Below are positions 6,688-27,484 of a stretch of DNA of 46,206 nucleotides, one piece after another. The notes under the pieces were generated by a model. It had not been told where the DNA came from, searched no databases, and was given only the letters and a program-made list of their open reading frames with translations. Each line of letters opens with the position of its first letter. Positions within the stretch are counted from its first letter, which is position 1. The stretch covers positions 1 to 46,206 of the forward strand of contig NZ_JAKFWS010000071.1 in the NCBI RefSeq assembly GCF_021731785.1, written 5' to 3'. The translations under genes were made by a program, and so were the position numbers. The DNA comes from Methylocystis sp. Lineage in GTDB: Bacteria; Pseudomonadota; Alphaproteobacteria; Rhizobiales; Beijerinckiaceae.

Positions 6688-6779
6688 AATGCCTCCTCCT
6701 TGCGCGGACCTTTCATCCCCGCATAATTTCGCCGAATCTGTCCTTGCCGCTGCGAAAAAACCGTGCTTGGCGCGAGCGC

Positions 6780-7379: not shown

Positions 7380-7467
7380 GGCATTCCATTATGATGGCGC
7401 CGCAGCAAAAGCCGCAAGCACAACCGGCGCCGGATATGCACATTCGGCGTTCGACCGGGAGATGAAC

Positions 7468-7764: not shown

Positions 7765-7794
7765 GGGTTCGCGAACTCTCGATGCGCGATTGAA

Positions 7795-7883
7795 GCCGGC
7801 CGCTCTTGACGGCCGGCCGGGCGGCGCGTAGCGCGGGCGACAGCGGCGCTTTCTAGAGCGGCGCCGCCAGAGGGGACGCTGCC
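7795..7883 (+). promoter_or_regulatory. structured leader of serC (candidate serC RNA motif)
   Basis: The leader holds two strong inverted repeats. GCCGGCCG (7795-7802) pairs with CGGCCGGC (7810-7817). GGCGGCGC (7820-7827) pairs with GCGCCGCC (7861-7868), ending just before the AGAGGGG ribosome-binding region and the serC ATG at 7884. Alphaproteobacteria carry a conserved RNA structure directly upstream of serC (the serC motif, a riboswitch or leader candidate). Position and two-hairpin form fit, but I cannot verify the consensus nucleotides. The first hairpin could instead terminate bolA. Confidence 0.4.
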
Positions 7884-12159: not shown

Positions 12160-14024
12160 TTAACGAGGTTGAGCGCCCTGCGTCCACCAGCTCTCCAAAG
12201 TGAAGCCGAACGGGAACATCGGAAAGAGCGGGGTGTGCTCAGGATGGCGGAGAGCGGCGGTATGCGCGCACCAGATGGCGTTCGCATGCTGGAGCGGCAC
12301 GAAATAGAAACCGGAAAGCAATATGCGATCGAGCGCGCGCGCCGCCCAGATGCTGTCTTCGCCGGTGCGCGACGCAAGCAGATTGGCGATCGCCGCGTCG
12401 ATCGCCGGCGAAGCGGCGCCGGCGAGATTAAACGAATTTTTCCGGATGAGACTTTCCGTGCTCCACCGGTTCAACTGCTCCTGACCGGGAACCGCGGCGG
12501 GCAGCCATTGGCCGGTCATCATGTCATATTCGAAACGTTGCCGCCGGCGCTGATACTGGACTTCGTCGAATAAGCGCGGATTGGCTTCGACGCCGATGCA
12601 CTTCAACGAAGCGGCGAAATTACGCGCTAGCCGCTCTTCGTCGCGGTCACGAATCATGATTTCGAACGCGACCGGAACGCCATCCTTTTGCAGACGCCCA
12701 TCGACGAGGACGTAGCCGGCGTCGGCGAGAAGCGCTTGCGCGCGCTTTGCGACCGTGCGATCGCGCCCCGAACCGTCGTGCTGAACCGGTCTCCAGCGGC
12801 CTTCGAGAATGTCGTCGCGCACCACGCCCGGAAAATTTGCAAGAAGCCGCGTTCGGCGGCGCTCGCGGGACGCCCCGTCGAGGCATAGTCCGACTCGCCG
12901 AAGTAGCTTTCCGTGCGCGCATAGAGTCCGCCGTAGAAATTGGCGTTGATCCACTCGAAGTCATACATCATCGCAATTGCTTCACGCAGCCGCACATCGC
13001 GAAAGAGCGCTTTGCGCAGATTGAAGACGAAGCCTTCCATTCCCGTTGGCCGGCCGGGCCGCAGAACTTCCTTCACGATGGCGCCATTGCGAACGGCGGG
13101 GAAATCATAGCCGGTTGACCAACGCGCGGCGCTCGTCTCCTCGTGATAGTCGATAAGACCCGCTTTCAATGCCTCAAACAGCGCGGCGCCGTCGCGGTAA
13201 TAGTCGACGTCGACTTCATCGAAATTATACAGCCCGCGTTGGCTCGGGATGTCCCGGCCCCAATAGTCCGGGTCGCGGCGCAAAACCAGGCGCTCCCCGA
13301 CTTTAGCTTCGGAAATCAGATAAGGACCTGAGCCGAGAGGAATCGTCATATCGACATCGTCGAAGCGCTCCACATTTGTCGCTTTTTTCGACAGAACCGG
13401 CATGGCGGCGAGAACGAGCGGCGCTTCGCGATCCGTCACGCCGGTGAGGTCGAAGCGCACCGTGCGATCGTCGAGCGAAACGGCGGACTTGACCAAGGCG
13501 AAAACCGCGCGAAACGCCGGCCGACCTTTCGACTTCGGCAATTCGAATGAAAATAGAACGTCGGCGGCGACGATCGGCGACTTGTCGGAAAATCGCGCCC
13601 GAGGGTCGATGTGAAATGTGAGATGCGCGCGCGCGTCGTCGATATCGACGGACTGGGCAATCAGCGGATACAGCGAATAGGGCTCGTCCTGCGACCGGGT
13701 CATCAGGCTTTCCACGACATTGCCGATGATGAGCTGCGGCGCGACCCCGAATCTGGCGTTGAACGGATTGAGACTTTCGAATCCCCCGCGCCGGCCGAGG
13801 CGCAGCGCGCCGCCTTTTGGCGCATGGGGATAGGCGTAAGGAAAGTGAGCGAAATCTTTCGGCAGCGCAGGTTCGCCATAGAGCGCGAGACCATGCGTGA
13901 CGGCAGCGCTGGAAGGCTTATCGGCAAGCGCCGAAACTGACGGCAGGAACGCGATGGCATGGATCAAAGCCGCGAGACGCGCAGCGGCGATTATAGGTCC
14001 GATTGGGTGGCCAGCGCGAAGCAT
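12160..14024 (-). pseudogene. YejA-like peptide ABC transporter substrate-binding protein, frameshifted
   Basis: Together two overlapping frames make one family 5 extracellular solute-binding protein of about 620 codons. The first frame starts at the ATG at 14024 (AAGGAGG six bases upstream), has a signal peptide, and continues with PYAYPHAPKGGALRLGRRGG and FESLNPFNARFG, typical of YejA-like proteins. It runs as family-like sequence to SAAERGFL near 12870. The second frame takes over at LLANFPGVVRDDILEGRWRP and continues to WWTQGAQPR at 12160. A single missing base near 12845-12870 explains the break. Both halves look well conserved, so either this is a recent inactivation or a sequencing error. 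No permease genes are adjacent. Confidence 0.8.
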
Positions 14025-14195
14025 TGATCGCCTCCTTCGCCAGATCGGCGGACTGAAACTATTCGGCCCGGGCAATCTCCAATTCGAAAAACTGCTGATC
14101 GCTATCGCCGGCTCGCGCGGCGCATGATCGGTTCAGAGAGATATCGCAGCTGTGAGCGTTCTCGAAGCTTCACCTTTAAACGCTTGTGCGGCGGA

Positions 14196-14220
14196 CGCCG
14201 CCCCTAAAATGGGGGCGGCG
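14196..14220 (-). terminator. hairpin downstream of the TonB receptor gene
   Basis: CGCCGCCCC (14196-14204) and GGGGCGGCG (14212-14220) form a perfect 9-bp stem 11 bases beyond the stop codon of the receptor gene on the minus strand. No T-run follows, so it is a stabilising or terminating hairpin of uncertain strength. Confidence 0.45.
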
Positions 14221-14230
14221 CCCGATCGCA

Positions 14231-16687
14231 TCAGAACTTGAGCTTAATGCCTCCGCTGAAACCAATCGGCTGGCCAGCTCTGATGCCCGCGCCCTGCGCC
14301 AGCACCAGGCCGCCGGTCGGCCAGACGACCGGCGTTTGAAACGGGGTGCCCGCGATGAGTGTGTTGCCAAGCGCCTGTGCGCCGGCGACATAAGTCCGAT
14401 TGAAGACGTTCTGGACGTCGAAAAAGAGCTCGATGTTCTTGATATAGAAGTTTGTCAGGTCGTGATTGTAATGAGCGTTGAGATTGACCACGCTGTAGCT
14501 GGGGATAGTGGTGTAGTTGGCGTTGTCGATCGTATAGTCGCTTTTGAATACATATTCGACATAGGCGCCGAGGCCGGCGAGATCGCCGTGGGGCTGATCA
14601 TATCCATAGCGCGCCGTCAGCGTATGCGGCGGCACATTGGGAATTCTGTTGCTCGCGCGATTGTAAAGAACGGGAACGCCCCCGATCGTTCCGAGATCGT
14701 CCCAATAATTGGTGAAGATCTGATTGTTGAACGTATAGGCGGCGATCAGTCGCCATCCCTCAAACGGCCGCCAATCGGCGTTGAGCTCGACGCCGCGGTG
14801 GACAGAGGAGGGAATGTTCAGCTGATAGCTGACGAGCGCATTGTTCAACGTCAAAATTTCATTGCGGTGCCATTCGTTGAAACCGGTCGCGCTGACCGTG
14901 AGATCGGGGCTCGGCGTCCAGTCGATCCCGAGATCGACGCCCATGTTGGTCTGAGCCTTCAGCGGATTTTGTCCGACGCCGTTTCGCGTATTGGTAAGGA
15001 AGATGAATGTCGGCGTGCTGTAGCCGGTCGCATAGCGCGCTCTCACCTGCCATTCGGGACTATAGCGATAGGTGAGCGACGCTTCCGGCGCCGTGTTCCA
15101 ATAGTCATTGTCGACGGCGATCTGAGTGGGAAATCTGGGCGCGAGGTTGGCGGGGTAGTTATAGGCGGTATTGACGCCCCATACCCGGTTCCAGTTGGCG
15201 CTGAAGCCGATGACGCCGGTCAGGCCCGGCGCGAGCGCAATTTCTTCGCGCGCACGCAAACTGATGTTTGACGTGTAGGAATCCATCTTGCCGACCTGCG
15301 CGCCAATTGCGCCGCTATACCATCTATTGGCAATCTGGTTGAAGGTCGGATTGGTGGTTTTGGCGTTGTTATAGAAGAACTGGAGAAAGTGCGTCGCCGG
15401 AAATCCAAAGATCGGCATGTGACTGGTGACGTCGGTCTGCGCGGTGATGCCCACCGTCGGACCCCTGATGCCCACCGGGCCGCCCGGTCCGGCCGGCCCC
15501 AAAATCGGCGGCGTCCAAGTGCCGTTGAGAAAGTCGAAATAGTCGTATGTGAATTGCGTCCGCAACGTCGTGTCCTTGTCAAAATCATGTTCGAACTGAA
15601 CGCCGCCGATCTGTCTGAGCGTGTTCGAGTGCGTGCCGAGCTGCCAGACGCTTTGGCGAACGACGGGGGTAGATATGCCATTCACGGGCACGTTCAAATT
15701 GTTGCACAATTGGGCGTTCCAAACGGTTGGGATAGCGCAGCCTTGTTGAAAAGGATTGAGATAGAACACCGATAAATTATTTCGATTGATAAACTCCGAT
15801 CTCAAATTGTTGGCGATATATTTCACAATCACGCGATCGTTAGGAGTCACCTCCCATCTGCCGAGAAACTTGCCTTGCTTGCCTGAGAAAGAATTGCGGG
15901 CCCACCCGCTGCTATTGGCGTCGGAGGCAAAAAACGCCAGATCGAAGCCGCCGAGCACGCTGTCCTTCACAGCCTTGCCGACGCGGATGTAATTGTTGAC
16001 ATAGCCGAAGCTGCCAAATTCCGAACCCGTGTGGACGCCGTCGATTTCGGCGCCGGAAAAGGTGCGAAAATTGATCGCGCCGCCATAGGCGTAATTGCCG
16101 AAGAGCGCGGATGAGGGTCCGCGATAGACGTCGACGGCGGCGAAAGAATGCGGATCGAGCAGGTCGGTGCGGCCATTGCCGTCCGCCGTCATGATCGGAA
16201 AGCCGTCTTCCCACAGCATGATGTTGCGGACGTTGATCGGATAGCCAGTGCCGGCGCGGTTGCCGGATCCGCGAATCGAAATCTGCAGATCGCGCACGCC
16301 ATCGCCCTGCTGTATTGAAACGCCGGGGCTGTATTCCAACACCCTCCGGACATCCGCTAAGGGCGTCGGCCTTAAGAACTTGGTGTCGATGATCGTGACC
16401 GTCTCGCCAGGCGGATCGCGGTAGATGGGCAGCTTCGCGCGGGCGGCGCTAAAGCCGGGCGCATATCCCGCTTCGCCTGCCGTCGACTCCCTCACGGCCG
16501 GAGTCGTCTCCGTCGGCGTTCCGACCGTGGGTCCCCGCGGAACTGCTCGAACGCCCGGGCCCGTGCGGAGCCGGCCGCCGATATCGATCGTCGGCAGCGT
16601 CTGCTGCGCCTGCACAAGCGACGCGGAGGACAAGAGAGCGAGAGCGCCAAGCGCCGCTCCATGCATCAATTTCGACCGGGCGTTCAT
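14231..16687 (-). CDS. mbnT: TonB-dependent outer-membrane receptor, candidate methanobactin importer
   Basis: The 818-residue protein has a signal peptide (to about LVQA), a possible TonB box near PTIDIGG, a plug domain (LADVRRVLEYSPGVSIQQGD, then QISIRGSGNR and VDVYRGPSSALFGNYAYGGA) and a long 22-strand-type barrel ending in a terminal Phe (GGIKLKF). It follows mbnH by 30 bases and is the last gene of the leftward mbnP-mbnH arm, which makes it the obvious candidate for re-uptake of copper-loaded methanobactin. Unlike receptors that signal to ECF sigma factors, I see no N-terminal STN signalling domain; the plug is preceded only by a Pro/Thr/Arg-rich stretch. It could instead take up another metal chelate. 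The receptor call is firm, the mbnT name less so. Confidence 0.75.
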   Translation of the reverse strand: MNARSKLMHGAALGALALLSSASLVQAQQTLPTIDIGGRLRTGPGVRAVPRGPTVGTPTETTPAVRESTAGEAGYAPGFSAARAKLPIYRDPPGETVTIIDTKFLRPTPLADVRRVLEYSPGVSIQQGDGVRDLQISIRGSGNRAGTGYPINVRNIMLWEDGFPIMTADGNGRTDLLDPHSFAAVDVYRGPSSALFGNYAYGGAINFRTFSGAEIDGVHTGSEFGSFGYVNNYIRVGKAVKDSVLGGFDLAFFASDANSSGWARNSFSGKQGKFLGRWEVTPNDRVIVKYIANNLRSEFINRNNLSVFYLNPFQQGCAIPTVWNAQLCNNLNVPVNGISTPVVRQSVWQLGTHSNTLRQIGGVQFEHDFDKDTTLRTQFTYDYFDFLNGTWTPPILGPAGPGGPVGIRGPTVGITAQTDVTSHMPIFGFPATHFLQFFYNNAKTTNPTFNQIANRWYSGAIGAQVGKMDSYTSNISLRAREEIALAPGLTGVIGFSANWNRVWGVNTAYNYPANLAPRFPTQIAVDNDYWNTAPEASLTYRYSPEWQVRARYATGYSTPTFIFLTNTRNGVGQNPLKAQTNMGVDLGIDWTPSPDLTVSATGFNEWHRNEILTLNNALVSYQLNIPSSVHRGVELNADWRPFEGWRLIAAYTFNNQIFTNYWDDLGTIGGVPVLYNRASNRIPNVPPHTLTARYGYDQPHGDLAGLGAYVEYVFKSDYTIDNANYTTIPSYSVVNLNAHYNHDLTNFYIKNIELFFDVQNVFNRTYVAGAQALGNTLIAGTPFQTPVVWPTGGLVLAQGAGIRAGQPIGFSGGIKLKF

Positions 16688-16717
16688 CGACTTTTCTTTC
16701 CTATTCGGGGTTGAGAC

Positions 16718-17896
16718 TCATTGAGCAGGCGCACGCGTTGGACCGCTTGCGGTCGACGCCGGTTTCCACGGGTCGGCGAAGCGGGGAGAAGTCAGCAGGG
16801 AGTCGTCGGTCAGCGTTTTCAGAAAGGCGATCAGATCGCTCTTTTCCTGGGGCGACAGATCAATCGGGACGATCAGCGCGCTCTTGTTCGGGTTGTAACG
16901 ACCGTCGCCCTTCAAGGGACCGATGGCGACGTTGCGGCCGCCGGCCGCGTAGATGTCGATCACGTCCTCGAGCGTCGCGACGCTGCCGTCGTGCATGTAG
17001 GGCGCGGTGACGGCGATGTTGCGCAGGCTCGGCGCGCGAAACGCGCCCATCTCAGCGGGGTTGTGGGTGTTCTCGAACACCCCGCGATTGGGTTCCGGAT
17101 AGGCGCCCTTGCCGTCGAGATCATAAAGCCCGGTATTGTGGAACGGCGTCTCGATCTCGCGGGTTTTCGCGTGATAGAACTGATCGTCGAAATTCACGCT
17201 GCCATGGCAGTGATGGCATTCGGCCTTCTCGCCGAAGAAGAGGTCCTTGCCGCGCGTCTCCTCAGGAGTGAGCGTGGCCTTGCCGAGAAGATAGAGATCA
17301 TATTTCGAGGAGGCTGACACCACGCCGCGCTCGAAGGCTGAGATCGCCTTGATGACGTTGCCGAAGCTGATCGGGTCCGGCTCGCCGGGAAACGCCGCCG
17401 CGAAGTCGTGACGATAGTCTGCGTCGCCCGCAAAGCGCGCGAGAATCTCTTTGCGGTTATTGTCATTGACGCCCATTTCGATGGGCTCTTCGCCAAAGAG
17501 CGGCCCTTCCATCTGCTTTTCCAGCGTGACCATCGCCGGATTTGCCCAGGTCAGCGTGGCCCGCCAGGCGGCGTTCGCCACGCTGGGAGAATTGCGAGGG
17601 GTATGCTGGCCGGTGGCGCCGACGCCGACCGGCCGGCCGTCGGTGAACGCCAGGCGCTGCTCATGGCATGAGGCGCAGCTTTCCTTGCCGTTGCCCGATA
17701 GACGGGCGTCATAGAAGAGTTTGCGCCCGAGTTGGAAGCGCGCCTCCGACATCGCATTGTCCGCAGGAACGCGGGGCGGCGGCATGAACTCTGGCAAGGT
17801 CCAGCTCCATGATTCCGCGCTTTGTTTGGTTTCGCCTTGCGCGCCGCTTGCGATCAAAATCGCGGCGAAGATGGGCAGGAGAGTTCCGCGCTTCAT
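16718..17896 (-). CDS. mbnH: MbnH, di-heme c-type peroxidase-like enzyme (MauG family)
   Basis: This 392-residue periplasmic protein has a signal peptide (MKRGTLLPIFAAILIASGAQ) and two c-type heme sites: CASCHEQ near residue 69 and CHHCHGS near residue 230. The late segment MGAFRAPSLRNIAVTAPYMH followed by DGSVATLEDVI is typical of the bacterial di-heme peroxidase/MauG family. MbnH in methanotrophs oxidises a tryptophan of its partner MbnP to kynurenine. The ATG overlaps the mbnP stop (ATGA at 17893-17896), so the two are translationally coupled, and the TonB receptor follows in the same operon. Confidence 0.9.
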   Translation of the reverse strand: MKRGTLLPIFAAILIASGAQGETKQSAESWSWTLPEFMPPPRVPADNAMSEARFQLGRKLFYDARLSGNGKESCASCHEQRLAFTDGRPVGVGATGQHTPRNSPSVANAAWRATLTWANPAMVTLEKQMEGPLFGEEPIEMGVNDNNRKEILARFAGDADYRHDFAAAFPGEPDPISFGNVIKAISAFERGVVSASSKYDLYLLGKATLTPEETRGKDLFFGEKAECHHCHGSVNFDDQFYHAKTREIETPFHNTGLYDLDGKGAYPEPNRGVFENTHNPAEMGAFRAPSLRNIAVTAPYMHDGSVATLEDVIDIYAAGGRNVAIGPLKGDGRYNPNKSALIVPIDLSPQEKSDLIAFLKTLTDDSLLTSPRFADPWKPASTASGPTRAPAQ

Positions 17897-18960
17897 TTTG
17901 CGGCCTCCGAGCGGAAGATTTTCGTCTGCGCGCCGGCGGACTGGCCGGCGTCATTGGCGTCAGGCGCGGTTTCCTTGAGCCGAAGCCCGAGATTTTCGAA
18001 CATCGGCGTACATTCCGGATCGGCCGGACCGCTCATGCAGCCGGTCGAGAATCCCTTGTCTTTGCCAAGATCGATGCCGGCGAAGAGCGGCTTCAGATCC
18101 AGCACGACGCGCTGCTTGGCAGAATCGAAGGAGGCCAGTTTCACTGGAATCCGATTGGGATTCGTGCAGGAGGTGATTTCGCCCTTCGTGGCGTCGCCGC
18201 GGCAGCCCGTCGAACCCAGATGCAGCATCCAGGTTGAGACCGTGATCGTGCCGTCCTCATTGACGCGCAGCGGCGCCGCCTTGGGCGCGTCGGCCATGGG
18301 CGGCGCGCCGCCGTCGGACTTGTCGCCGGGCGCGCCGGCGCCATTCGCCGCATCCGCTGGGCTTCTCGGCTTGAGCGGCGGACGGGTCACGCCGCCTTCG
18401 GGATCGACTTCGATTTTCACGAATTTGCGGCCGGCCTGCCAGTTCCAGGTCATCGACTGCAGATCGAGCGGCGCGGGCGCGGTGGCGAAATTCGAGTGGT
18501 TGAGGACGACATCCTTGCCGTCTTTATCCTGAACGACGCTCGGGACGCCGATGACGAAGCTGATTCCCTTGTAGCGGCCGCGCGGGGCCGATCCTTTGAT
18601 CGTGTCGTTGACGTCGGCGCTGCCGATGCATTTGCCGGTCTTGTTTTCGAAATCGAGCAGGGCGAGGTTGGCGTATTGCCAGTCGTTTTGTTCGAGTTCG
18701 ATCGGAACTTCGCGGCCGGCGGCGTCGATCAGCGCCGGCGCCGAGATATAGAATCGCGCATCGCGGAGTTGGGCCGGCTGACCGCCTGCTCCGAGCCCGG
18801 CGATGTCGCGGCCGCATTCGACCGGCTGATCGCCCGCCGCAAGCGCAAAGCGTATCGCGACCGGCTGTCTTTCATTCGCGTCGGGTTTGTTGGCGGCATG
18901 CGCGACGCTAATCGCGACAAGTCCGCCGATGGCGACGGCAACTCCGTTGAATGCGCTCAT
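17893..18960 (-). CDS. mbnP: MbnP, periplasmic copper-binding four-Cys protein
   Basis: This is the partner of MbnH ('metallo-mystery pair' four-Cys protein). The 355-residue product starts at the ATG at 18960 (AGGAG eight bases upstream) with signal peptide MSAFNGVAVAIGGLVAISVA. The mature part opens PVAIRFALAAGDQPVECG, then has FYISAPALID, KTGKCIGSADV, RGRYKGISFVIGVP, and C-terminal cysteines in GSTGCRGDATKGEITSC and STGCMSGPADPEC. Trp residues lie in NDWQYANL, MTWNWQAG and STWMLHLG; one could be the kynurenine site made by MbnH. A Pro/Ala/Gly-rich insertion (PRSPADAANGAGAPGDKSDG) divides the domain. Role: copper binding outside the inner membrane, linked to methanobactin use. Confidence 0.9.
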   Translation of the reverse strand: MSAFNGVAVAIGGLVAISVAHAANKPDANERQPVAIRFALAAGDQPVECGRDIAGLGAGGQPAQLRDARFYISAPALIDAAGREVPIELEQNDWQYANLALLDFENKTGKCIGSADVNDTIKGSAPRGRYKGISFVIGVPSVVQDKDGKDVVLNHSNFATAPAPLDLQSMTWNWQAGRKFVKIEVDPEGGVTRPPLKPRSPADAANGAGAPGDKSDGGAPPMADAPKAAPLRVNEDGTITVSTWMLHLGSTGCRGDATKGEITSCTNPNRIPVKLASFDSAKQRVVLDLKPLFAGIDLGKDKGFSTGCMSGPADPECTPMFENLGLRLKETAPDANDAGQSAGAQTKIFRSEAAK

Positions 18961-19118
18961 GATTACTCTCCTGTCGGCGACGAGCATTGAGATATGTCTT
19001 GGCCGCGCGCGTAGGCGGCGACTGTCGGCGGCGCGTGAAAACACGCGCGGCGCACATCAAACGCGAGGGAATGGCGAGTGGGGTCGAAGACCCGGCAGCC
19101 GGCCGTTAACGCGCTCTC

Positions 19119-19532
19119 TTAGGAGAGAAGCGACGGGGGCGCGCGAGAGAGTCGATTACTGGGCCACTGTGCGGCCGAGGGCGCGATATCGCGCTGTTCG
19201 ACCCAGTGGGGAAGATCGTCGGACCGTGGGGCCAGCACGAGAACCACGGCGGCAAATAGAATGTTTGAACCAAGATCGCTGTCTTGCTCGCTCAGAAAGC
19301 AGGCGAGGCAGTGCATGTGTTGGACATGCGAAGCCTTGCCGTCGCCGTCGCCCTTATCGGCGCAGAGCTCGCTAGCGAACGCCACAGGGGAGCTGATGAA
19401 GGCTCCGACGTCGCCGCCCTGACGCGCTTGAGAAAAGACAAGGGCAAAAGCTTGCTGGAACAGCAGACAAGCGATTGCGGCCGTCACCAACGGACGCATA
19501 AATCGCTTAATATTTTGCCGATCCTGCCGCAT
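19119..19532 (-). CDS. DUF2946-like cysteine/histidine membrane protein
   Basis: The protein has an N-terminal hydrophobic segment (LVTAAIACLLFQQAFALVF), a metal-binding-like centre with Cys in ELCADKGDGDG and HVQHMHCLACFLSE, and a second hydrophobic segment (NILFAAVVLVLAP). This layout, TM-Cys-HxHCxxC-TM, resembles DUF2946 proteins, which are often found with copper genes. The start is unsure: ATG at 19532, a later ATG at 19499 and a TTG at 19571 are all in frame, none with a good ribosome-binding site. It is the first gene of the leftward arm, 158 bases before mbnP, and mirrors the similar gene at 19770. Confidence 0.55.
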   Translation of the reverse strand: MRQDRQNIKRFMRPLVTAAIACLLFQQAFALVFSQARQGGDVGAFISSPVAFASELCADKGDGDGKASHVQHMHCLACFLSEQDSDLGSNILFAAVVLVLAPRSDDLPHWVEQRDIAPSAAQWPSNRLSRAPPSLLS

Positions 19533-19769
19533 GATGAATTTTGTGTGCACGGCAATTGGCTTGTCAATCAAGTTTAGCGTCGCATAGTCTTAATATTCGT
19601 AGTTGTTGCGCTTCCGCCACACTTGGACTTTGCAGTTGGTCGGTCTTCGCCGTACGACGTCGACACGCGTCGAGATCGTCGGCAAAACCGCTGATGCAGG
19701 TTTTTCGACCTTGCTCAGAATCGTGAGGCGCCTTGCTGATCGATAAGAGAGGGAGCGCCGACCTTTTGA
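19533..19769. promoter_or_regulatory. divergent control region of the methanobactin locus
   Basis: This 237-base region separates the leftward mbnP/mbnH arm from the rightward mbnI/mbnA arm. On the minus strand TTGACA (19567-19562) lies 17 bases from ACAAAA (19544-19539), a partial -10 box, which would place a transcript start near the 19532 start codon. A GC-rich imperfect inverted repeat (CGACGTCGACACGCGTCGAG around 19659-19678) could be an operator. No other motif was recognised. Confidence 0.35.
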
Positions 19770-20231
19770 ATGTCGACAGCAACCCCCTTAGCGATCGTTC
19801 CGCCATGTGGGCGGCGCATAAGGAGTTTTCGTATTGCCGGCGGCGCGTTTCACGCCTATGATCCGGGCACCGTAAGCAGTGGTTGGCGGCATCCATGCTC
19901 GTTCGGATTTTTCTTTTTACTGGCGACATTGCTGCAGGCGGCGGGCGTTTCGGCCGGCGCGGCGCACGCCCATTTCCAGCATCCCACGCTCGCCGCCCCC
20001 ATCTGCAAGGCCGACGCGATTCCAGCGGCGCCTCATTCGCCGCTTGAGCCCAACGGCTCATGCGCCGACTGCATCGCATGTTGCAGTTCGCATCCGCCCA
20101 TCCTTTCCGTCCTTAACGAAATTTCGCACCTAACCCCTTCGACAAGCCGAGCCGTCGTTCCTGCCTCCGTAGCTCTTCTCGCGCCCCCGAAGCATTCGGA
20201 CACGCCGCCGGCGCGCGCCCCTCCCGCCTAA
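19770..20231 (+). CDS. second DUF2946-like cysteine-rich membrane protein
   Basis: The 153-residue frame has a hydrophobic segment FGFFFLLATLLQAAGVSAGA, then a His/Cys region AAHAHFQHPTLAAPICKADA, the cysteine cluster GSCADCIACCSSHPP, and a second hydrophobic segment near ASVALLAPP. The order is the same as in the divergent gene at 19119-19532, so both may be related copper-binding membrane proteins. The ATG at 19770 lacks a close ribosome-binding site (GGGAG is about 15 bases away), and the first ~50 residues look weakly coding, so the real start may be further in. It lies 126 bases upstream of the sigma factor gene. Confidence 0.5.
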   Translation: MSTATPLAIVPPCGRRIRSFRIAGGAFHAYDPGTVSSGWRHPCSFGFFFLLATLLQAAGVSAGAAHAHFQHPTLAAPICKADAIPAAPHSPLEPNGSCADCIACCSSHPPILSVLNEISHLTPSTSRAVVPASVALLAPPKHSDTPPARAPPA

Positions 20232-20357
20232 GTCCAAGCGACGCGATTCGGCAGCGAACCGTCGCGGATGATCAAGACCGCGCATCGCCGAAGGCCGCCT
20301 GAGGCCGTTTGCGATCGATGCGCTTTCATTGGCGGCGCACTTGGGAGGGATGCGCTG

Positions 20358-21197
20358 ATGCTCAAGTCTCATGAGACAATCGACCGACTGTTTAGAAGTC
20401 ATCACCGCGATCTGATCACGCGGGCCCGCAGCGTGATCGGGTCTGACGACGCCGAAGACATGGTCCAGCAGGCCTATCTCAAAATGCTCGAAGGCGACCA
20501 TGGCGAACTCGTCGCCAACGCGCGCGGCTATGTGTCGAAAATGACGTGCACACTCGCCATCGACAGTCTTCGAAGACGGAAGACGCATGCCCGAGCCCTT
20601 GCCGAAGACAGCGCATGGGTCCAGTCGGCCGTTCAAGACACGCTGATCGCGTCGGCGTCAGACACGTTCGGGCTGGCGTCCGACGTGCAGGCGGCCCTTA
20701 TGCAGCTGCCGCGATGTTGCCGTCAGGTGTTTTTTATGAGCCGAATACTGGGCTTCAGCCATTCGGAGATCGCGCGGGAAATCGGCGTTTCCCTGAGAAC
20801 GGTCAATCGCAGCCTGGTTCGGGCGCTCGAACACTTCGATCGCGCCTTCGAGATCGCGCGCCCGAGCGCCCCGGTGGGCGCGCCGCCTTTCAAGGCGGCG
20901 GATTCGCCGCGCGAGTTCTTGGCCGCGCCATCCGACGCGCGGTCCGTCGCCCGGGATTTGACGGAGATCAAAATCCCGACGCCGCGAAAAAATTCTCGGC
21001 GCAGGCTGTCCGATTTTTGCGGCCTCACTCGTCATACCATTCGGGTTCCGCATTCCGCGAACCCCGTCTGGACTTTCCAGACGAATTCAAAGAGGGAGGC
21101 TCCTATGACCATCCGTATCGCCAAGCGCATCACCCTGAACGTTATCGGCCGCGCCAGCGCCCGTTGCGCGTCGACCTGCGCCGTCAGCAACGGCTAA
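20358..21197 (+). CDS. mbnI: MbnI-type ECF sigma factor; frame runs on through mbnA
   Basis: The frame starts at the ATG at 20358, eight bases after GGGAGGG. Sigma region 2 is DRLFRSHHRDLITRARSVIG followed by DDAEDMVQQAYLKML and TLAIDSLRRRKTHAR. Sigma region 4 is ALMQLPRCCRQVFFMSRILG followed by HSEIAREIGVSLRTVNRSLV. These are FecI-type ECF sigma features, and the position fits MbnI of methanobactin clusters. A FecI-like protein would end near residue 175, but here the frame stays open for about 75 more residues (APVGAPPFKAADSPREF to TFQTNSKREAP) and enters mbnA at 21105 in the same frame, ending at 21197. G/C preference at third positions persists to roughly 21020, then weakens. No anti-sigma gene (mbnR) follows. 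Confidence 0.8.
   Translation: MLKSHETIDRLFRSHHRDLITRARSVIGSDDAEDMVQQAYLKMLEGDHGELVANARGYVSKMTCTLAIDSLRRRKTHARALAEDSAWVQSAVQDTLIASASDTFGLASDVQAALMQLPRCCRQVFFMSRILGFSHSEIAREIGVSLRTVNRSLVRALEHFDRAFEIARPSAPVGAPPFKAADSPREFLAAPSDARSVARDLTEIKIPTPRKNSRRRLSDFCGLTRHTIRVPHSANPVWTFQTNSKREAPMTIRIAKRITLNVIGRASARCASTCAVSNG
21066..21082 (+). promoter_or_regulatory. short hairpin upstream of mbnA
   Basis: GTCTGGA (21066-21072) and TCCAGAC (21076-21082) form a perfect 7-bp inverted repeat with a 3-base centre, ending 22 bases before the mbnA start codon and just upstream of its AGAGGGAGG ribosome-binding site. It could be an operator for a dimeric regulator or an mRNA 5' stem-loop. Confidence 0.4.
21105..21197 (+). 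CDS. mbnA: methanobactin precursor peptide MbnA
   Basis: MbnA is the ribosomal precursor of methanobactin. The 30-residue peptide has the leader MTIRIAKRITLNVIGRASA (19 residues) and the core RCASTCAVSNG (11 residues). Two core cysteines at positions 2 and 6 are the sites converted by MbnB/MbnC to oxazolone/thioamide pairs that bind Cu(I); the Thr at core position 5 is the expected sulfation site in SB2-type methanobactins. From memory, the leader is the Methylocystis SB2-type leader and the core of SB2 is RCASTCAATNG, so this core differs at two residues (Val-Ser for Ala-Thr). GGGAGG lies six bases before the ATG. A strong hairpin follows before mbnB. Confidence 0.95.
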   Translation: MTIRIAKRITLNVIGRASARCASTCAVSNG

Positions 21198-21206
21198 GGA
21201 CGATCG

Positions 21207-21241
21207 GCTTGCGCCGTGGGCCCCCGGCCAGCGGCGCAAGC
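21207..21241 (+). terminator. hairpin between mbnA and mbnB (candidate attenuator)
   Basis: GCTTGCGCCG (21207-21216) and CGGCGCAAGC (21232-21241) form a perfect 10-bp GC-rich stem with a 15-base loop, starting 9 bases after the mbnA stop. Only a weak T-rich stretch follows (GATTTCGG). It probably limits read-through or protects the mbnA message, giving more precursor mRNA than enzyme mRNA. Confidence 0.6.
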
Positions 21242-21275
21242 GATTTCGGCGTATCCAGACGAAGGCGGCAAATAG

Positions 21276-22103
21276 ATGCGGCTTGGCTTCAATTTCACGC
21301 TCGGCGACACTCATGAGATGGTCCAAAGGCTCATCGCCGAAAGACACATCGATTACTGCGAATTCCTTATCGACAATTTTTTCTGCGTCGAACCGGACGA
21401 ATTAGCCAAGGCGTTCGATTGTCCCGTCGGCTTGCATATTATGTATTCCAAGTTTCTCGAAGCCGACCGGCCGACGCTTGTCGACTTCGCCGCTCGGCTT
21501 CGAGATTATATCGACGCGCTCAACCCGATTTACGTCTCAGACCACATTTTGCGTTTTTCTCACGAAGGACGCGCGTTTTTTCACCTGGGCGAAGTCGACT
21601 ATTCAACAGAATATGAGTTGGTGCGCGACAAGGTCCTGCAATGGCAGGATCTCGTCGGTCAACGCATTCATTTCGAAAATTATCCGTCCATCATGGATGG
21701 CGGGGTGGAAGCGCCCGCCTTCTTCGAGCGCCTGACCGAGGAAACCGGCGCGGGCGTGCTGTTCGACGCGTCCAATGCCGTCTGCTCCAATCGCAATTGC
21801 GGGACGCCGTTCGAAGCGTGGCGCAACGTCATAGCCGGCGCCAAGCATTTTCACGTCGCCGGCTACAGGCAGTCGCTGATCGAACCCTTCATCTCGCTCG
21901 ACACCCACGCCGAGGCGCTGGCGCCGGACACGCTCGCCTTCCTTGAAAAGTTCCGTTCGGTCTTCGACAAGCCTGGCGCAACGATGACCTACGAGCGCGA
22001 TGACCAGATCGAGTTTGACGACATAGTCGCCGATCTGAAACTCTTGCGAAATCTGTTCGGCCAACCGGAAGAAAGGCGTCATGACCTCGCTCTCTCTGCC
22101 TAG
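21276..22103 (+). CDS. mbnB: MbnB, DUF692-family iron enzyme of methanobactin synthesis
   Basis: MbnB is the TIM-barrel (DUF692) multinuclear iron oxygenase that, with MbnC, uses O2 to convert core Cys residues of MbnA into oxazolone and thioamide groups. The 275-residue protein begins MRLGFNFTLGDTHEMVQRLI and shows family blocks: DYCEFLIDNFFC, PVGLHIMYSKF, YVSDHILRFSHEGRAFF with metal-ligand candidates, RIHFENYPSIMDGG, GVLFDASNAVCSNRN, and KHFHVAGYRQSLIEPFISL with DTHAEAL. GAAGGCGG precedes the ATG. It overlaps mbnC by 23 bases. Confidence 0.95.
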   Translation: MRLGFNFTLGDTHEMVQRLIAERHIDYCEFLIDNFFCVEPDELAKAFDCPVGLHIMYSKFLEADRPTLVDFAARLRDYIDALNPIYVSDHILRFSHEGRAFFHLGEVDYSTEYELVRDKVLQWQDLVGQRIHFENYPSIMDGGVEAPAFFERLTEETGAGVLFDASNAVCSNRNCGTPFEAWRNVIAGAKHFHVAGYRQSLIEPFISLDTHAEALAPDTLAFLEKFRSVFDKPGATMTYERDDQIEFDDIVADLKLLRNLFGQPEERRHDLALSA

Positions 22104-22662
22104 TCGAACTGACCGCGACCTGTATCCCGCGCTCATGTCCCCGGAATTGTGCGCGAGTTATCCTGCGCACCATAAGGCTTTTGTGCGGATCGACGTGAGC
22201 CTGCGCGTCTATTGGCATACGCTATTCGATATCTGTCCCGAACTGCTGGAGCTCTCCGGTCCCGACGGCATGTCGATCTTTCGGCCCTTCATGGCCTGGG
22301 CGGGAGAGAAAAAGCTCGCCTTCGACTGGTCCTATTATCTGTGGGTCTATGTCTGGCCGCGCCAATCCCCATTCAAGGAAAGGCTGTTGGCCGACCGCAA
22401 ATATCTGAGGTCGATCATGGGAGCATCCGCGGCGCGTTGGGCGGTGCTCGATCGCGGCAGAGATTGCGGAATCGTGATCGGATGCGTCGACACGACGGAT
22501 ATTGTTATCGGCTGGAAGTGCCGCAGCGTTCTTCTCGGTCGAGAAATCGAGCTTATCGAGCCCGAGGAGCCCTTGCCGGCGCCGCCGGATATTTTCGGTT
22601 ACTTTACCTTGCCGACTTTTGAACTCGACATTTTTCCGGGGTGGCAAGGCCTCGCGCGATGA
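22081..22662 (+). CDS. mbnC: MbnC, partner of MbnB
   Basis: MbnC forms the heterodimer with MbnB that binds the MbnA leader. The 193-residue sequence begins MTSLSLPSRTDRDLYPALMS and includes AYHK-like YPAHHKAFVRIDVSLRVYWH, DICPELLELSGPDGM, and AWAGEKKLAFDWSYYLWVYV, ending FPGWQGLAR. Its size and its place after mbnB are standard for the family. The ATG at 22081 lies inside the mbnB end and has AAAGG five bases upstream; an internal ATG at 22135 is less likely. The stop overlaps the mbnM start (ATGA). Confidence 0.9.
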   Translation: MTSLSLPSRTDRDLYPALMSPELCASYPAHHKAFVRIDVSLRVYWHTLFDICPELLELSGPDGMSIFRPFMAWAGEKKLAFDWSYYLWVYVWPRQSPFKERLLADRKYLRSIMGASAARWAVLDRGRDCGIVIGCVDTTDIVIGWKCRSVLLGREIELIEPEEPLPAPPDIFGYFTLPTFELDIFPGWQGLAR

Positions 22663-23960
22663 CCGGCGCGCCGCTGTGGCGCGGATACTGGTTACTGTTC
22701 GCCAGCACTTCCGCAGCCGCCTTCATTATGCAGATCGATCTCGCCATGGTTGCGAGACTGGGCGGCCGCGCGTCGGGCGCCTATGCGATTCTGATGCGCA
22801 TCACGCTGCTTGATGTCGCGGTCACCATCGCGTGCGCCGCCGTCGCGGCCATTGCGCTCGGCCATGCACAAAAGAATGGCGCGACCGCCGACGCGATTGA
22901 AAAGACTTGCGCGCTCTCCCTCGTGCTTGGCGTCGCGACAGCGATTTTCGGCTTCTTCGCCTATCCGGTCTTCCTTGACGCCCTGATGGGCGACGCCGCG
23001 GCCGCTCCCTATATCGGCGCCCCGATCGTATGGCTTGTCGCTGGCGCCCCTTTTCGCGTTCTTTCGAATACGCAAGGATTTTTGTTGCATGCGCTTGGAC
23101 GCGGCGGCACGGTGCTCGCTTGGAAGCTCGCGGAAATTCCAGCGAAAGCTGCGGCCAATATCCTCTTCATGCAGACGCTTGGGTTGGGGTTCGCTGGCTG
23201 CTTTCTTGCGGGCTGCATCGTTGCGACGGCTTCGTCATTCTGGTTGTGGAGCCGGCTGCAAGCGCATGGCGCGCGAAGAATTCGCATTCCCGAAATCGCT
23301 TTCGTACGCTCCTTTCTGAGCGGAACCTTCTGGGAGGCGCTGCGGGTGCTCTCGCCGCAAGCGGCGATGCTCTTCGCGCTGACGCTCTTCTCGCTTCCTT
23401 GGCCCAACGGCGCCAATGGTCATCGTCTCGACTCATTTGCGGCCGCCCAAACCTTCATGCTGTTCATTCTTGGTCCGTTGATTACGTTGACGCGCTTTCT
23501 CGCCATTCACCTGCCGACGAAATCTCAGGGCGACTGGTCGCCGGCGCTCGCGCCAGTCGTCCGGGTCGGCGCGCCAATCGCGCTGACGGCCGCCATTTTG
23601 CTACTGCTCGGGTGCGATTGGATCGGCGCGACTCTCTACCGCCAACAGGGAGCTTGGTGGTCCGTCTTCGTCGCCTGCCTGGCCCTTTCCTTGCCGGTCC
23701 GCTTTGTCGGAAGCATCGTGCGCGGACTAACGCTCGCTCGCAGCTCCTTCGCAGAGCTGACCTCCGTGGATGTGCTTTCGCAGTGGCTCATCGCGCCGCT
23801 GTTCATTCTAATTGGTCTTTCAGTCAACCGTCCTGAGATCGCCTATCAATCTCTGATCTGGCCCGAAGTCTTCGCCGTTTTCTTGCTCTGGCGCGGTCTT
23901 CGATCCGCGCCAGAGGATCCGATGGGCGTTTCGTTGCCTTCAGAAGGACATGTCCGATGA
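22659..23960 (+). CDS. mbnM: MbnM, MATE-family exporter
   Basis: The 433-residue inner-membrane protein has about twelve hydrophobic segments and begins MTGAPLWRGYWLLFASTSAA followed by FIMQIDLAMVARLGGRASGA, the typical first helix pair of MATE transporters. The second half opens with FWEALRVLSPQAAMLFALTL. It is the candidate exporter of mature methanobactin. I start at the ATG at 22659, which overlaps the mbnC stop (ATGA); an upstream in-frame start at 22641 also exists. Its own stop overlaps the mbnF ATG, showing tight coupling. Confidence 0.9.
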   Translation: MTGAPLWRGYWLLFASTSAAAFIMQIDLAMVARLGGRASGAYAILMRITLLDVAVTIACAAVAAIALGHAQKNGATADAIEKTCALSLVLGVATAIFGFFAYPVFLDALMGDAAAAPYIGAPIVWLVAGAPFRVLSNTQGFLLHALGRGGTVLAWKLAEIPAKAAANILFMQTLGLGFAGCFLAGCIVATASSFWLWSRLQAHGARRIRIPEIAFVRSFLSGTFWEALRVLSPQAAMLFALTLFSLPWPNGANGHRLDSFAAAQTFMLFILGPLITLTRFLAIHLPTKSQGDWSPALAPVVRVGAPIALTAAILLLLGCDWIGATLYRQQGAWWSVFVACLALSLPVRFVGSIVRGLTLARSSFAELTSVDVLSQWLIAPLFILIGLSVNRPEIAYQSLIWPEVFAVFLLWRGLRSAPEDPMGVSLPSEGHVR

Positions 23961-25609
23961 GCGTCGAGCGAGTCCCTGTTCTCATTGTCGGCGCCGGCTA
24001 CGCCGGCTTGTCGGCGGCGACGCTGCTCGCATGGCGCGGCGTTCCCTGTCTTCTGGTGGAGCGACGCCCGTCAACGTCGCGACTGCCGAAAGCGCATGGG
24101 ATCAACCGGCGCAGCATGGAAGTTCTGCGAGTCGTCGCGGGTCTGGAAGATGCGCTGTTCGCAGCAAGCCGCACGGGCGCCAATGAATCCACGCTCATCA
24201 TCGCCGAGAGCGTAGCAAGTCCGCCGATCGAAACGCTCGTGACCAAGACGTCGCTCGACGCGACGCGCGTGTCGCCGAGCAAAATATGCACCGCGGGTCA
24301 GGACCGGGTCGAACCGGTCTTGCTGCGCTTTGCGCGCGAGAATGGCGCCGATATCAGATTTTCCACCGCGCTGACGCGCTTCTCGCAGCGCGATGATGGC
24401 GTCGAGGCGATCCTGCGCGACGAAGCGTCGGGAATAGAGACGACCGTGCTTGCGGACTACATGATCGCGGCGGACGGCGCCGGCGGAACGATCCGCGACG
24501 CCGGCGGCGTGAAGATGGAAGGCCCGGGATTCCTTGCGGATACGATCTCGGTGCTGTTCGAGGCCGATCTCAGCGCGATCCTGCCAAGTGATGGATTTGT
24601 ACTCTACTATTTGCGCAACTCGGCGTTCAGCGGCGCGTTCGTCACCTGCGACGAAGCCAATCACGGCCAAATCAACATCGAATATGATTCCACGCGGGAT
24701 CAGGAGTCCGATTTCGACGAAGAGCGATGCCGAGAACTCGTTCGACAATCTCTTGGCGTCTCCGACCTCGCGGTGAAAATTCTCGACATTCGGCCCTGGC
24801 GGATGGCCGCTCTCATCGCCGATCGCATGTCCTTCGGTCGGGTGTTTCTTGCGGGCGACTGCGCGCATATCACGCCGCCGGTCGGCGGGCTCGGCGGACA
24901 AACCGCAATTCAAGACGGCGCAGATTTGGCGTGGAAACTGGCGCTCGTCGTCAAGGGCGATGCGGCTCCCGCGTTGCTCGATACCTATCAGATCGAGCGC
25001 AGGCCAGTGGCTCGAATCGCAATTGCGCGAGCAATCGCCAATTACGTCGAGCGCCTCCTGCCTGATCGTCAGGAACTGCGCATTCGGGAAGACGAATACG
25101 GTCTTCTCGAAACCGCGATGGGCTATCGGTATCGCTCGGACGCGATCATCGCAGACGAGGCCGATGACGGCGCGTCGGTCGAAAATCCTCTTCGTCCGAG
25201 CGGCGCGCCGGGAACGCGTCTTCCGCATGTCTGGCTGCGGCGCGGCGAAGAGACGATCTCCTCTCACGATCTGATTGGACGCGACTTCATGCTGTTCGTC
25301 GGAGAAAAGGGTAGCGACTGGATCGAGGCGGTGCGGAAAATTCGCGCGAGCGCCAAAGTCTCGCTTGGCGTCTGCCGCCTGGGATTCGACGTCGACGATC
25401 CCGAAGGCCTGTTTTTGCCGCGCCTGGGCGTCTCGTCCGAAGGCGTGCTTCTTGTTCGTCCCGACGGCTACATCGCCTGGCGCTCGCGAGGCCGAAGCGC
25501 CGACGCTCTCGCGACGCTCGAGGCGAGTTTTGCGCGCGCCAGAGGCGAAAAACGCGCCGAGCAGCGCTCGGCGCGTCACGAGACGGTTCTCGCTGGAGCA
25601 TCCGAATGA
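23957..25609 (+). CDS. mbnF: MbnF, FAD-dependent monooxygenase
   Basis: This 550-residue flavoprotein monooxygenase belongs to the PheA/TfdB type. The FAD-binding GxGxxG is in VPVLIVGAGYAGLSAATLLA near residue 12, an LVERRP acidic strand end follows, and the second FAD motif is GRVFLAGDCAHITPPVGGLG near residue 295, followed by the QDGADLAWKLALV helix. A C-terminal thioredoxin-like tail (RDFMLFVGEKGSDW, LLVRPDGYIAWRSRG) completes the form. In SB2-type methanobactin clusters MbnF is thought to convert an oxazolone ring to the pyrazinedione/imidazolone-type ring. The ATG overlaps the mbnM stop. Confidence 0.9.
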   Translation: MSVERVPVLIVGAGYAGLSAATLLAWRGVPCLLVERRPSTSRLPKAHGINRRSMEVLRVVAGLEDALFAASRTGANESTLIIAESVASPPIETLVTKTSLDATRVSPSKICTAGQDRVEPVLLRFARENGADIRFSTALTRFSQRDDGVEAILRDEASGIETTVLADYMIAADGAGGTIRDAGGVKMEGPGFLADTISVLFEADLSAILPSDGFVLYYLRNSAFSGAFVTCDEANHGQINIEYDSTRDQESDFDEERCRELVRQSLGVSDLAVKILDIRPWRMAALIADRMSFGRVFLAGDCAHITPPVGGLGGQTAIQDGADLAWKLALVVKGDAAPALLDTYQIERRPVARIAIARAIANYVERLLPDRQELRIREDEYGLLETAMGYRYRSDAIIADEADDGASVENPLRPSGAPGTRLPHVWLRRGEETISSHDLIGRDFMLFVGEKGSDWIEAVRKIRASAKVSLGVCRLGFDVDDPEGLFLPRLGVSSEGVLLVRPDGYIAWRSRGRSADALATLEASFARARGEKRAEQRSARHETVLAGASE

Positions 25610-25690
25610 CGTCGCAAACTTCGTCCCGGCTCAATTGCAACCATGAGCCGACGGACATAATCTACGCCTATTGACGAAAAGGAGCGGGGC

Positions 25691-26323
25691 ATGCGGTACG
25701 CGCCTCCCTTGGACGATGCGATTCTGATCGATCCCAAGCGGCGGTCAATCGCCGTAACAAGACGCGAGCGATCGATGATCAAGGGCCAGCGTCCGGCGGT
25801 CGTCTGGCTTACGGGATTGTCAGGTGCGGGCAAATCGACGATCGGCAATCTCGTCGAGCGCAAACTGGTGATGAGCGGCGCGCATACGTTTTTGCTTGAC
25901 GGCGACATGCTGCGCTGCGGGCTGAATGAAGATCTGGGTTTCACCAGCGTCGATCGAAGAGAAAACATCCGCCGCGTCGGCGAGGTCGCCAAGCTCATGA
26001 CCGAGGCAGGCCTTATCGTCATCTGCGCGCTCATCTCGCCGTTCCGCGCCGAACGACTTGCGGTGCGGCGGCTATTCGCGCCCGGCGATTTTCTTGCAGT
26101 ATTCGTCGACACGCCGCTCCAGGCGTGCATCGAGCGCGATCCGAAAGGGCTGTACAAGCGCGCGCTCGCGAGCGAAATCGAGAATTTTACGGGGATACAT
26201 CAAGCCTATGAGCCTCCGGAGCGGCCTGAACTGGTCTTACAGACATTGGATGGTTCGCCCGAGCAAATGGCCGATCGGCTCCTCGAAATCGTTCGACCGT
26301 TTTTGTCCGCCCCCAGCCTTTGA
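25691..26323 (+). CDS. adenylylsulfate kinase (CysC-like), probably dedicated to methanobactin sulfation
   Basis: APS kinase phosphorylates adenosine 5'-phosphosulfate to PAPS, the donor for sulfotransferases. The 210-residue protein has the P-loop GLSGAGKST at residues 42-50, LLDGDMLRCGLNEDLGFTSV, RRENIRRVGEVAKLMTEAGL, ALISPFRAERLAVR and FVDTPLQACIERDPKGLYKR, all standard CysC blocks. The N-terminus carries an extra ~35 residues compared with a minimal CysC. GGAG lies before the ATG. It stands 81 bases after mbnF and 31 bases before the sulfotransferase gene, so it probably supplies PAPS to MbnS. A housekeeping copy may exist elsewhere. Confidence 0.9.
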   Translation: MRYAPPLDDAILIDPKRRSIAVTRRERSMIKGQRPAVVWLTGLSGAGKSTIGNLVERKLVMSGAHTFLLDGDMLRCGLNEDLGFTSVDRRENIRRVGEVAKLMTEAGLIVICALISPFRAERLAVRRLFAPGDFLAVFVDTPLQACIERDPKGLYKRALASEIENFTGIHQAYEPPERPELVLQTLDGSPEQMADRLLEIVRPFLSAPSL

Positions 26324-26354
26324 CGGCTGCGTCCGCCCGATTGGAGAATGACGC

Positions 26355-27359
26355 ATGGTTTGCGCGTCCGACATTTCCTTGAACGGAACCCCTTCCAGCC
26401 TCTACGTCGATCCCAAAAGACTCGACACGCTTCACCGTCCTTATCAGGACTTCCGGCGGCGAACCGACGCCGCCGGCGCCTGGCGCAATCTGCCCTTGGC
26501 GGTCGCGCATCAATTCAGACGCTACTATTTTTTCAATCCGCCAAAATGGCGTGTTTGGGCGCGGACCCTCGGTTCCAGCCAACGCATGGAGCCGTCCTTC
26601 GCATCGATCGGCGCAGTGCGCTCCGGCACGTCTTTCCTGTCCTCTTATATTCTTCAGCATCCGCACGTGGTCCTGCCGCTGTCGAAGGAAATCTCCTTCA
26701 CGGAAACGATGCGCGAGCTGATGGCCTATTTCCCGACGCTCGCGGCGCGAGGGGAGGCGGAGCGACGAAACGGCGGCGCGATCACCGGTTACTGCACGCC
26801 CGTGATGCCCAACCCGCTCTGGATATTTCTAGCGCGGTCGATGTTTCCAAACATGCGGATCATATGCGTGCTGCGCGATCCGGTTGAGCGCACGTTTTCT
26901 CATTGGCGGTGGGATCAGAAGCGTTTCATGAGCCGCAGGGCGAAGGATCCGCACTGGAAGGGCTTTCCAGATTTCGAAACCCTGGTTAAGACCGAAATCG
27001 CGACGATACGGGGCGGTGGGATGGAGCCGCATGCGTTCTCGGGCGCGCGCGCCGGCTATTTGCGGCACAGCATCTACGCGCCCTTCATGCGTCTGCTCTT
27101 CGAGCATTTTGGGAGAGAGAGCGTTTTCATCGTCGATGCGGCGGAGTTTTTTCAAGACCCCCAATCGACGGCGAAGCGGATTTACGCGTTCCTCGGGCTG
27201 CCTATAGTCGAGCCGCTCTTGATCGAGGAGCGCAATCCCGGGCCGTCCGGCGAGCTAGATGATGGCGTTCGGGAGAATTTGGCCGCGTTTTTTCGGCCCT
27301 ACAACGAAGAACTCTACTCGCTGCTCGACGAGGATTTCGGCTGGGGCGCCGGGAAGTAG
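26355..27359 (+). CDS. mbnS: MbnS, PAPS-dependent sulfotransferase
   Basis: MbnS is the sulfotransferase of Methylocystis-type methanobactin clusters and is expected to sulfate the core threonine. The 334-residue protein has the 5'-phosphosulfate loop [18 protein letters not shown] at residues 82-99 and the 3'-phosphate-binding segment [20 protein letters not shown] near residue 175. The block [20 protein letters not shown] followed by [12 protein letters not shown] is typical of heparan/N-deacetylase-like sulfotransferases. GGAG precedes the ATG by eight bases. It is the last gene of the rightward methanobactin arm. Confidence 0.9.
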
Positions 27360-27484
27360 AGCCCACGCCCCGACGAAATTCTCCTCGGCCCGGTTCCGCC
27401 CGGCCGCTGGGCGGGTGGGCTTCACGCGCCCGCGTTCCGGCAATATATGGAGGACGCAGAAACTTCTCCCGGTTCGAGGATAGG

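Follow-up and report, generated by a model that had tools for sequence, protein, structure and literature searches.

The window analysed here comprises the 46,206 nucleotides of contig NZ_JAKFWS010000071.1 from a Methylocystis sp. genome (NCBI RefSeq assembly GCF_021731785.1) and contains a methanobactin locus, in which mbnA, the gene of the precursor peptide, forms the in-frame C-terminus of a gene for a 279-residue extracytoplasmic function (ECF) sigma factor. The locus is a Methylocystis methanobactin locus of the SB2/SV97-type (Group II) with a slightly altered core peptide. Taken as a whole, we regard it as reasonably probable that in this variant locus an ECF-type promoter embedded in the sigma factor coding region drives mbnA-B-C-M-F and yields free MbnA, while a sigma-MbnA fusion is encoded in addition. 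Five features read from the sequence carry this picture, i.e., the set of genes, the in-frame fusion, a promoter-like element conserved as DNA, a hairpin with covarying arms and a deficit of stop codons in the linker that joins the sigma domain to MbnA. The fusion as such has been described before; the embedded promoter-like element, the hairpin and the test of the reading frame are the additions made here.

The open reading frame at 20268-21197 has no stop codon between the ECF sigma factor and MbnA. The translation start of the fusion is likely the ATG at 20358, which was chosen from an alignment and which gives the 279 residues. The protein combines ECF sigma regions 2 and 4 with MbnA at its C-terminus in a single open reading frame and scores above the cut-off of the family NF040705 (Table 1). 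The presence of such a fusion was already noted for SC2 and SV97, in an article that left two questions unanswered, namely if cleavage releases the precursor from the sigma factor and if the latter remains functional (Kenney & Rosenzweig 2013, PMC3621798). No treatment of the fusion from the years after 2013 was found in a literature search, as far as the accessible portions of the texts reach. A relative from M. iwaonis (L114, NZ_AP027143.1; related loci are given here by L numbers and genomes by G numbers) carries the product name of NF040705, 'methanobactin precursor domain-containing sigma factor', and the M. iwaonis methanobactin locus, including the sigma-MbnA fusion, resides on a plasmid of 320 kb, not far from an IS3 transposase. 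In L114 the gene following mbnP (7046-8230) is labelled MbnM, yet it matches MbnH at 78%.

For the comparison, 39 genomes of the genus were searched with MbnA and 21 gave a match, which after subtraction of G592 and G684 leaves 19 distinct sigma-linked sequences. All of these have the motif GTCCGA-N16-CGTC. Relative to the mbnA ATG, it begins at position -98 in L014 and L050 and at -97 in the other 17 loci. In its layout the element resembles an ECF promoter: a -35-like box is followed by CGTC as the -10-like box, with 16 bases separating GTCCGA from CGTC. Owing to the shift by one base, the reading frame of the fusion crosses the element in a different register in each of the two clades, whose linker proteins are hardly alike, and the element is thus conserved as DNA. 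Moreover, the final ~110 bases before mbnA are unusually conserved, and the pooled synonymous divergence of this conserved linker part is 0.15 compared to 0.33 for the sigma domain, as expected under constraint at the DNA level. A looser pattern, GTCCG-N15..19-CGTC, was present in the 200 bases preceding mbnA in 17/17 sigma loci tested. Of 11 methanobactin loci without the fusion, one (L063) has it in the 500 bases preceding mbnB, which is probably due to chance. The exact long form of the element has one match in the genome, namely at mbnA, and scanning of 19863 to 21400 reported no sigma-70-like site. These data suggest that the element acts as a promoter and that it may be used by the very sigma factor in whose gene it is embedded.

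Downstream of the element an inverted repeat of 7-8 pairs is found in 19/19 sequences, separated from the ATG by 21 bases (by 23 in L014 and L050), and dinucleotide shuffles gave an equally good inverted repeat in 0 to 6 of 300 cases. Its arms read GTCTGGA...TCCAGAC in the main clade and GTCCGAT...ATCGGAC in the L014 clade, so that in an alignment made by eye three of the seven pairs are altered on both sides between the two clades. This suggests that the repeat acts as an RNA hairpin in the mbnA leader. Alternatively, it could be a DNA operator bound by a dimeric repressor, with no RNA hairpin being formed. A near-perfect palindrome close to a promoter-like element would suit such an operator, and the loss of the innermost pair in five sequences (L008, L009, L048, L078 and L084) counts against the RNA. 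However, the half-site of the presumed operator differs by clade, and the four one-sided changes (in L005/L006, L007, L061 and L050) give G-U pairs, which retain pairing in RNA yet break the symmetry of the DNA. An operator is therefore rather unlikely in our estimate, and on balance the RNA hairpin is preferred. It is followed by a strong ribosome-binding site; in L060, GGGAAG stands in place of GGAG before the mbnA ATG.

Next to the signals preceding mbnA, the reading frame of the fusion appears to be kept by selection. The fusion is in frame in 18/19 distinct sigma-linked loci, and the 18 linkers have 62-83 codons in eight different lengths with no stop codon, whereas their other five frames hold 9, 19, 23, 23 and 28 stops in total. 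In a test for stops across the 16 loci of the main clade, parsimony placed 361 substitutions in the linker, from which 8.5 stops were expected and none was seen (P ~2e-4, a value that assumes independent changes, averages over present-day sequences and uses a tree built from the fusion genes themselves). The variable part of the linker accounts for 4.65 of the expected stops. As the linkers of L014 and L050 do not align, the main-clade figures are given without these two loci. The codon and stop tests do not include L059 and L064, which belong to the genus and have mbnA with no sigma factor in the frames read upstream, and L060, which has a frameshift. L013 and L058 begin so near the end of a contig that mbnA is not visible in them, L015 is only distantly related, and in G624 (L070) mbnB and mbnA were read by eye, the latter being unreported by the MbnA search. 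Together, this is good evidence that the linker is translated, with weaker evidence for its last 42 codons before mbnA. An open reading frame in another genus (L062/L108, genome G463), sigma-like, in the mbnA frame and ending at a stop six codons before the ATG, was considered as an unfused ancestor; by eye it looks frameshifted itself, and this reading is thus merely suggestive.

It is possible, though we would give it a minority share of the probability, that the in-frame fusion is incidental, i.e., that promoter, hairpin and ribosome-binding site are sited at the end of the sigma gene and the frame simply runs on without a functional fusion protein. The strong internal start signals would yield free MbnA without any fusion, the conserved linker part is conserved as DNA and not as protein, and the pooled ratio of nonsynonymous to synonymous substitution rates is 0.69 in both linker parts, the variable one included, compared to 0.16 in the sigma domain. 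Against an incidental run-on of the frame stand, however, the absence of any stop where 8.5 were expected, linker length changes that keep the frame in 18/18 loci, and a frame kept in two clades despite the element lying in a different frame in each.

Several observations weigh against the embedded promoter or the retained fusion. The sigma factor of L060 (G631) is frameshifted in region 4 while its element, linker and mbnA are intact, so that one genome combines a broken sigma factor with an intact precursor gene. The stop deficit is weak in the last 42 linker codons, the conserved part (2.91 expected, P 0.05, main clade), and in ~0.1 of shuffles chance alone leaves a single linker open (as tested for six of the 18 linkers). 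With up to one mismatch the element has 12 sites in the genome (mbnA and 11 others) vs three for a reversed control pattern. Ten of these 11 lie under open reading frames of at least 120 codons (including L107 and L098), the exception being L106 (G000:C60:17866-17891), where an open reading frame of 148 codons starts ~225 bases downstream on the same strand. The one-mismatch sites are presumably mostly chance, and a small wider regulon may exist. Scanning of the window with up to three mismatches gave 17 matches vs 20.8 expected, i.e., chance level, and no copy just upstream of mbnP, so that the leftward genes would need other control. Finally, when the structure of the fusion was modelled (10 sequences; mean predicted local distance difference test score, pLDDT, 53.8), the sigma domain was predicted to be folded and the tail disordered, with linker and MbnA at pLDDT 29-37 and undocked in a model that is uninformative as to docking.

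Under the preferred reading, low copper would lead to transcription from the promoter embedded in the C-terminal linker of the sigma factor, most likely recognised by the sigma factor encoded around it and probably driving mbnA-B-C-M-F. The transcript would carry a short leader with the hairpin just before the strong ribosome-binding site, and such a short transcript would give a free 30-residue MbnA without the sigma part. A transcript starting further upstream would also encode the sigma-MbnA fusion, and the apparent selection on the frame would indirectly support that the fusion protein is made in the cell. MbnB and MbnC would then modify MbnA, with MbnF, adenosine 5'-phosphosulfate (APS) kinase and the sulfotransferase finishing the product, MbnM exporting it, and the receptor and MbnE taking the copper complex back; the roles of the Mbn proteins follow the accessible parts of earlier accounts (PMC3621798, PMC7558416, PMC10167746). 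No anti-sigma gene was found among the 18 open reading frames of the window scanned with Pfam, and at the N-terminus of the receptor Pfam matched no signalling domain, so that the sigma factor would need other control. The MbnA-bearing C-terminal tail may be a natural candidate for this in the manner of CorE, which is a conjecture. It was reported that MbnC binds the MbnA leader (PMC8888699, accessible in part), and by a further conjecture the tail could thus also report MbnBC activity.

The original prediction had described a complete methanobactin locus with mbnA-B-C-M-F and the sulfotransferase gene rightward and mbnP-mbnH-TonB receptor leftward, and the order and strands found here agree with it (Table 1). 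Family matches support the genes it named; overlooked were the ECF sigma factor in frame with mbnA, the APS kinase and an orthologue of mbnE. MbnB, MbnC, MbnM, MbnF, MbnH and MbnP were called by curated NCBIfam cut-offs, and the sulfotransferase and the receptor by Pfam. In line with Group II, MbnB and MbnC are above their cut-offs beside MbnA, the core has two cysteines, the CASTCA motif and the conserved threonine (by comparison with PMC3621798), and MbnF, the sulfotransferase, MbnM, MbnP, MbnH and the TonB receptor are all present. The best matches among sequences of solved structures are PDB 7FC0 for mbnB (364 bits) and PDB 8FHJ for mbnF (1039 bits). By eye, the true start of mbnP is likely the ATG at 18960, which is preceded by an AGGAG site. 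A scan of 14000-27500 with Rfam at gathering scores gave no match.

Table 1. Features of the methanobactin locus in the window (positions on the forward strand)
Feature	Position	Strand	Evidence
mbnE orthologue (periplasmic solute-binding protein), split in two frames	12160..14075	-	both pieces match SBP_bac_5
TonB-dependent receptor mbnT	14231..16687	-	Pfam Plug and TonB barrel
mbnH di-haem enzyme	16718..17896	-	TIGR04039, 477 bits (cut-off 362.85)
mbnP	17893..19044	-	TIGR04052, 269.7 bits (cut-off 140)
sigma-MbnA fusion gene, 279 residues	20358..21197	+	NF040705, 504.1 bits (cut-off 350)
ECF sigma domain, regions 2 and 4	20358..20858	+	Pfam Sigma70_r2 and Sigma70_r4_2 above cut-off
linker, sigma domain to MbnA	20859..21104	+	no in-frame stop in 18/18 linkers
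ECF-promoter-like element GTCCGATTT-N13-CGTC	21008..21033	+	GTCCGA-N16-CGTC upstream of mbnA ATG in 19/19 sigma loci
8-bp inverted repeat (hairpin), predicted mbnA leader	21065..21083	+	7-8 bp stem in 19/19
mbnA ribosome-binding site GGGAGG	21094..21099	+	GGAG before ATG in 18/19 sigma loci
mbnA, core RCASTCAVSNG	21105..21197	+	translation; PF25751, TIGR04071
mbnB	21276..22103	+	TIGR04159, 445.9 bits (cut-off 325)
mbnC	22081..22662	+	TIGR04160, 285.8 bits (cut-off 185)
mbnM exporter	22641..23960	+	NF045578, 524.5 bits (cut-off 285)
mbnF flavin monooxygenase	23957..25609	+	NF045577, 881.1 bits (cut-off 800)
APS kinase, between mbnF and mbnS	25691..26323	+	PF01583
mbnS sulfotransferase	26355..27359	+	Pfam Sulfotransfer_1 and _3; 81% identity to M. 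rosea SV97 gene

The mbnE orthologue lies just beyond the region covered by the original prediction. Its frame switches near 12831-12846, which is either an error of the draft sequence or a real loss. The intact relative in L006 matches the sequence of MbnE in PDB 5ICQ with 793 bits; the gene is in one frame in L006, L008, L009 and L012, and L011 shows its C-terminal part only. The APS kinase likely makes 3'-phosphoadenosine 5'-phosphosulfate for the sulfotransferase. Besides the window, L005, L006, L013 and L014 have its gene, which in L014 follows that of the sulfotransferase; none was found in L007-L012 or L110-L113, some of the stretches ending near the locus. Apart from this gene, the order is common to M. 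rosea SV97 (L008), B8 (L006), L43 (L009) and M. silviterrae (L012). Two small proteins are encoded in the interval from mbnP to the sigma gene, a DUF2946 member (19119-19571, minus strand) and one without a Pfam match (19770-20231, plus strand), for which a CADCIACC stretch was noted and which were both seen again in related loci. As to other relatives, L007 (core RCASTCSVSNG) has a short mbnM-like remnant between mbnC and mbnF (3313-3507) and a full-length mbnM after the sulfotransferase gene (6427-7737), both likewise in L113, and in L112 (14-5046, from G631, whose sigma factor is frameshifted) two copies of the TonB receptor gene lie side by side next to the methanobactin locus.

MbnA of the window translates to MTIRIAKRITLNVIGRASARCASTCAVSNG. 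It had been predicted that its core, RCASTCAVSNG, differs from the SB2/SV97-type core RCASTCAATNG by Val-Ser for Ala-Thr at residues 8 and 9 and that the leader is unchanged. Both claims hold, as the leader is identical to that of M. rosea SV97 (L008), and the SB2/SV97-type core agrees with L008 and with the accessible part of PMC3621798. The cores of the 19 sigma-linked sequences are RCASTCAATNG (8), MCASTCAATNG (4), RCASTCAMTNG (2) and, once each, RCASTCAVSNG (the window), RCASTCSVSNG, DCGATCSATNG, HCASTCSATNG and DCASVCTSVNG. Val-Ser at residues 8 and 9 thus occurs in 2/19 and the exact core of the window in 1/19; it is absent from MbnA in the other 20 genomes of the genus with a match, and a text search of PMC, which covers papers and not the deposited protein databases, found the string in no paper. 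One base per codon separates Val-Ser from the Ala-Thr form (GTC for GCC and AGC for ACC). The draft state of the genome (197 contigs) and the frameshift in mbnE of the same window might suggest that Val-Ser is a sequencing or assembly error with a standard true core. Such an error is highly improbable, as it needs two separate single-base differences and as the identical two codons are present in L007, a separate assembly.

A different C-terminal tail and mass were also predicted for the product. The tail was overstated, since the last two residues of the SB2 product were never observed and the third only in part (PMC10167746, accessible in part), and the expected difference in the mature product would be mainly Ala8 to Val. 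The mass calculation assumes two ring/thioamide pairs, a single sulfation and the removal of two more hydrogens. Under this inferred chemistry the monoisotopic apo masses would be 851.200 Da for SB2, 879.231 Da for RCASTCAV and 966.263 Da for RCASTCAVS; the value for SB2 agrees with the mass of 851, which we take to be that of SB2 methanobactin. The structure of the product, which as a Group II methanobactin would be a Cu-binding peptide with two heterocycle/thioamide pairs and a sulfated Thr, and its chemistry are thus predicted by analogy. By itself, the core change is a minor variant and an ordinary addition to a known group, offering another natural change at residues 8 and 9 for probing the tolerance of the modifying enzymes.

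The main interest of the locus is that a fusion reported in 2013 now comes with precise and testable sequence elements. As to the control of methanobactin in Methylocystis, SB2 lacks the signalling receptor, as well as the pair of sigma and anti-sigma factors with which Methylosinus OB3b serves its second receptor (PMC9601215, accessible in part). The embedded promoter-like element, the hairpin and the ribosome-binding site would answer the cleavage question of 2013 specifically, in that free MbnA needs no cleavage, and the positions of the element give exact sites at which the start of the mbn transcript can be sought.

Except for the APS kinase, the window has the same genes as the Group II locus of M. 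rosea SV97 (L008) and SB2, with which it also shares the order, the strands, the leader and RCASTCA. It differs in residues 8 and 9 of the core and, relative to L008, in the APS kinase gene between mbnF and mbnS, where L008 has none. The fusion is of the same protein family as NF040705, and no difference in the protein was found. Similarly to the MbnI-MbnR-MbnT system of Methylosinus, as described in the accessible parts of PMC3621798 and PMC9601215, an ECF sigma factor is tied to methanobactin genes. In contrast to this system and to the FecI-FecR-FecA type, only Plug and barrel were matched in the receptor of the window, with no signalling domain, and the open reading frames scanned showed no anti-sigma gene. 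With the CorE-like ECF sigma factors (former ECF44, now ECF238), the window protein has in common the ECF sigma factor, a cysteine-containing C-terminal extension, a link to copper and, likewise, no anti-sigma gene in the open reading frames scanned. By eye, however, it is without the CXC between sigma regions 2 and 4 that belongs to the definition of that group in the accessible part of PMC8999054, and its tail is a methanobactin precursor with two cysteines (a third being in the linker), apparently in place of a copper-binding Cys-rich domain. By analogy, the sigma-MbnA protein might be a self-sensing regulator, in which the two cysteines of the tail, copper-bound or modified by MbnBC, would switch a sigma factor transcribing from its own embedded promoter, an idea that we consider speculative and unlikely at present. 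Equally tentatively, such a regulator would work like CorE without belonging to the CorE family.

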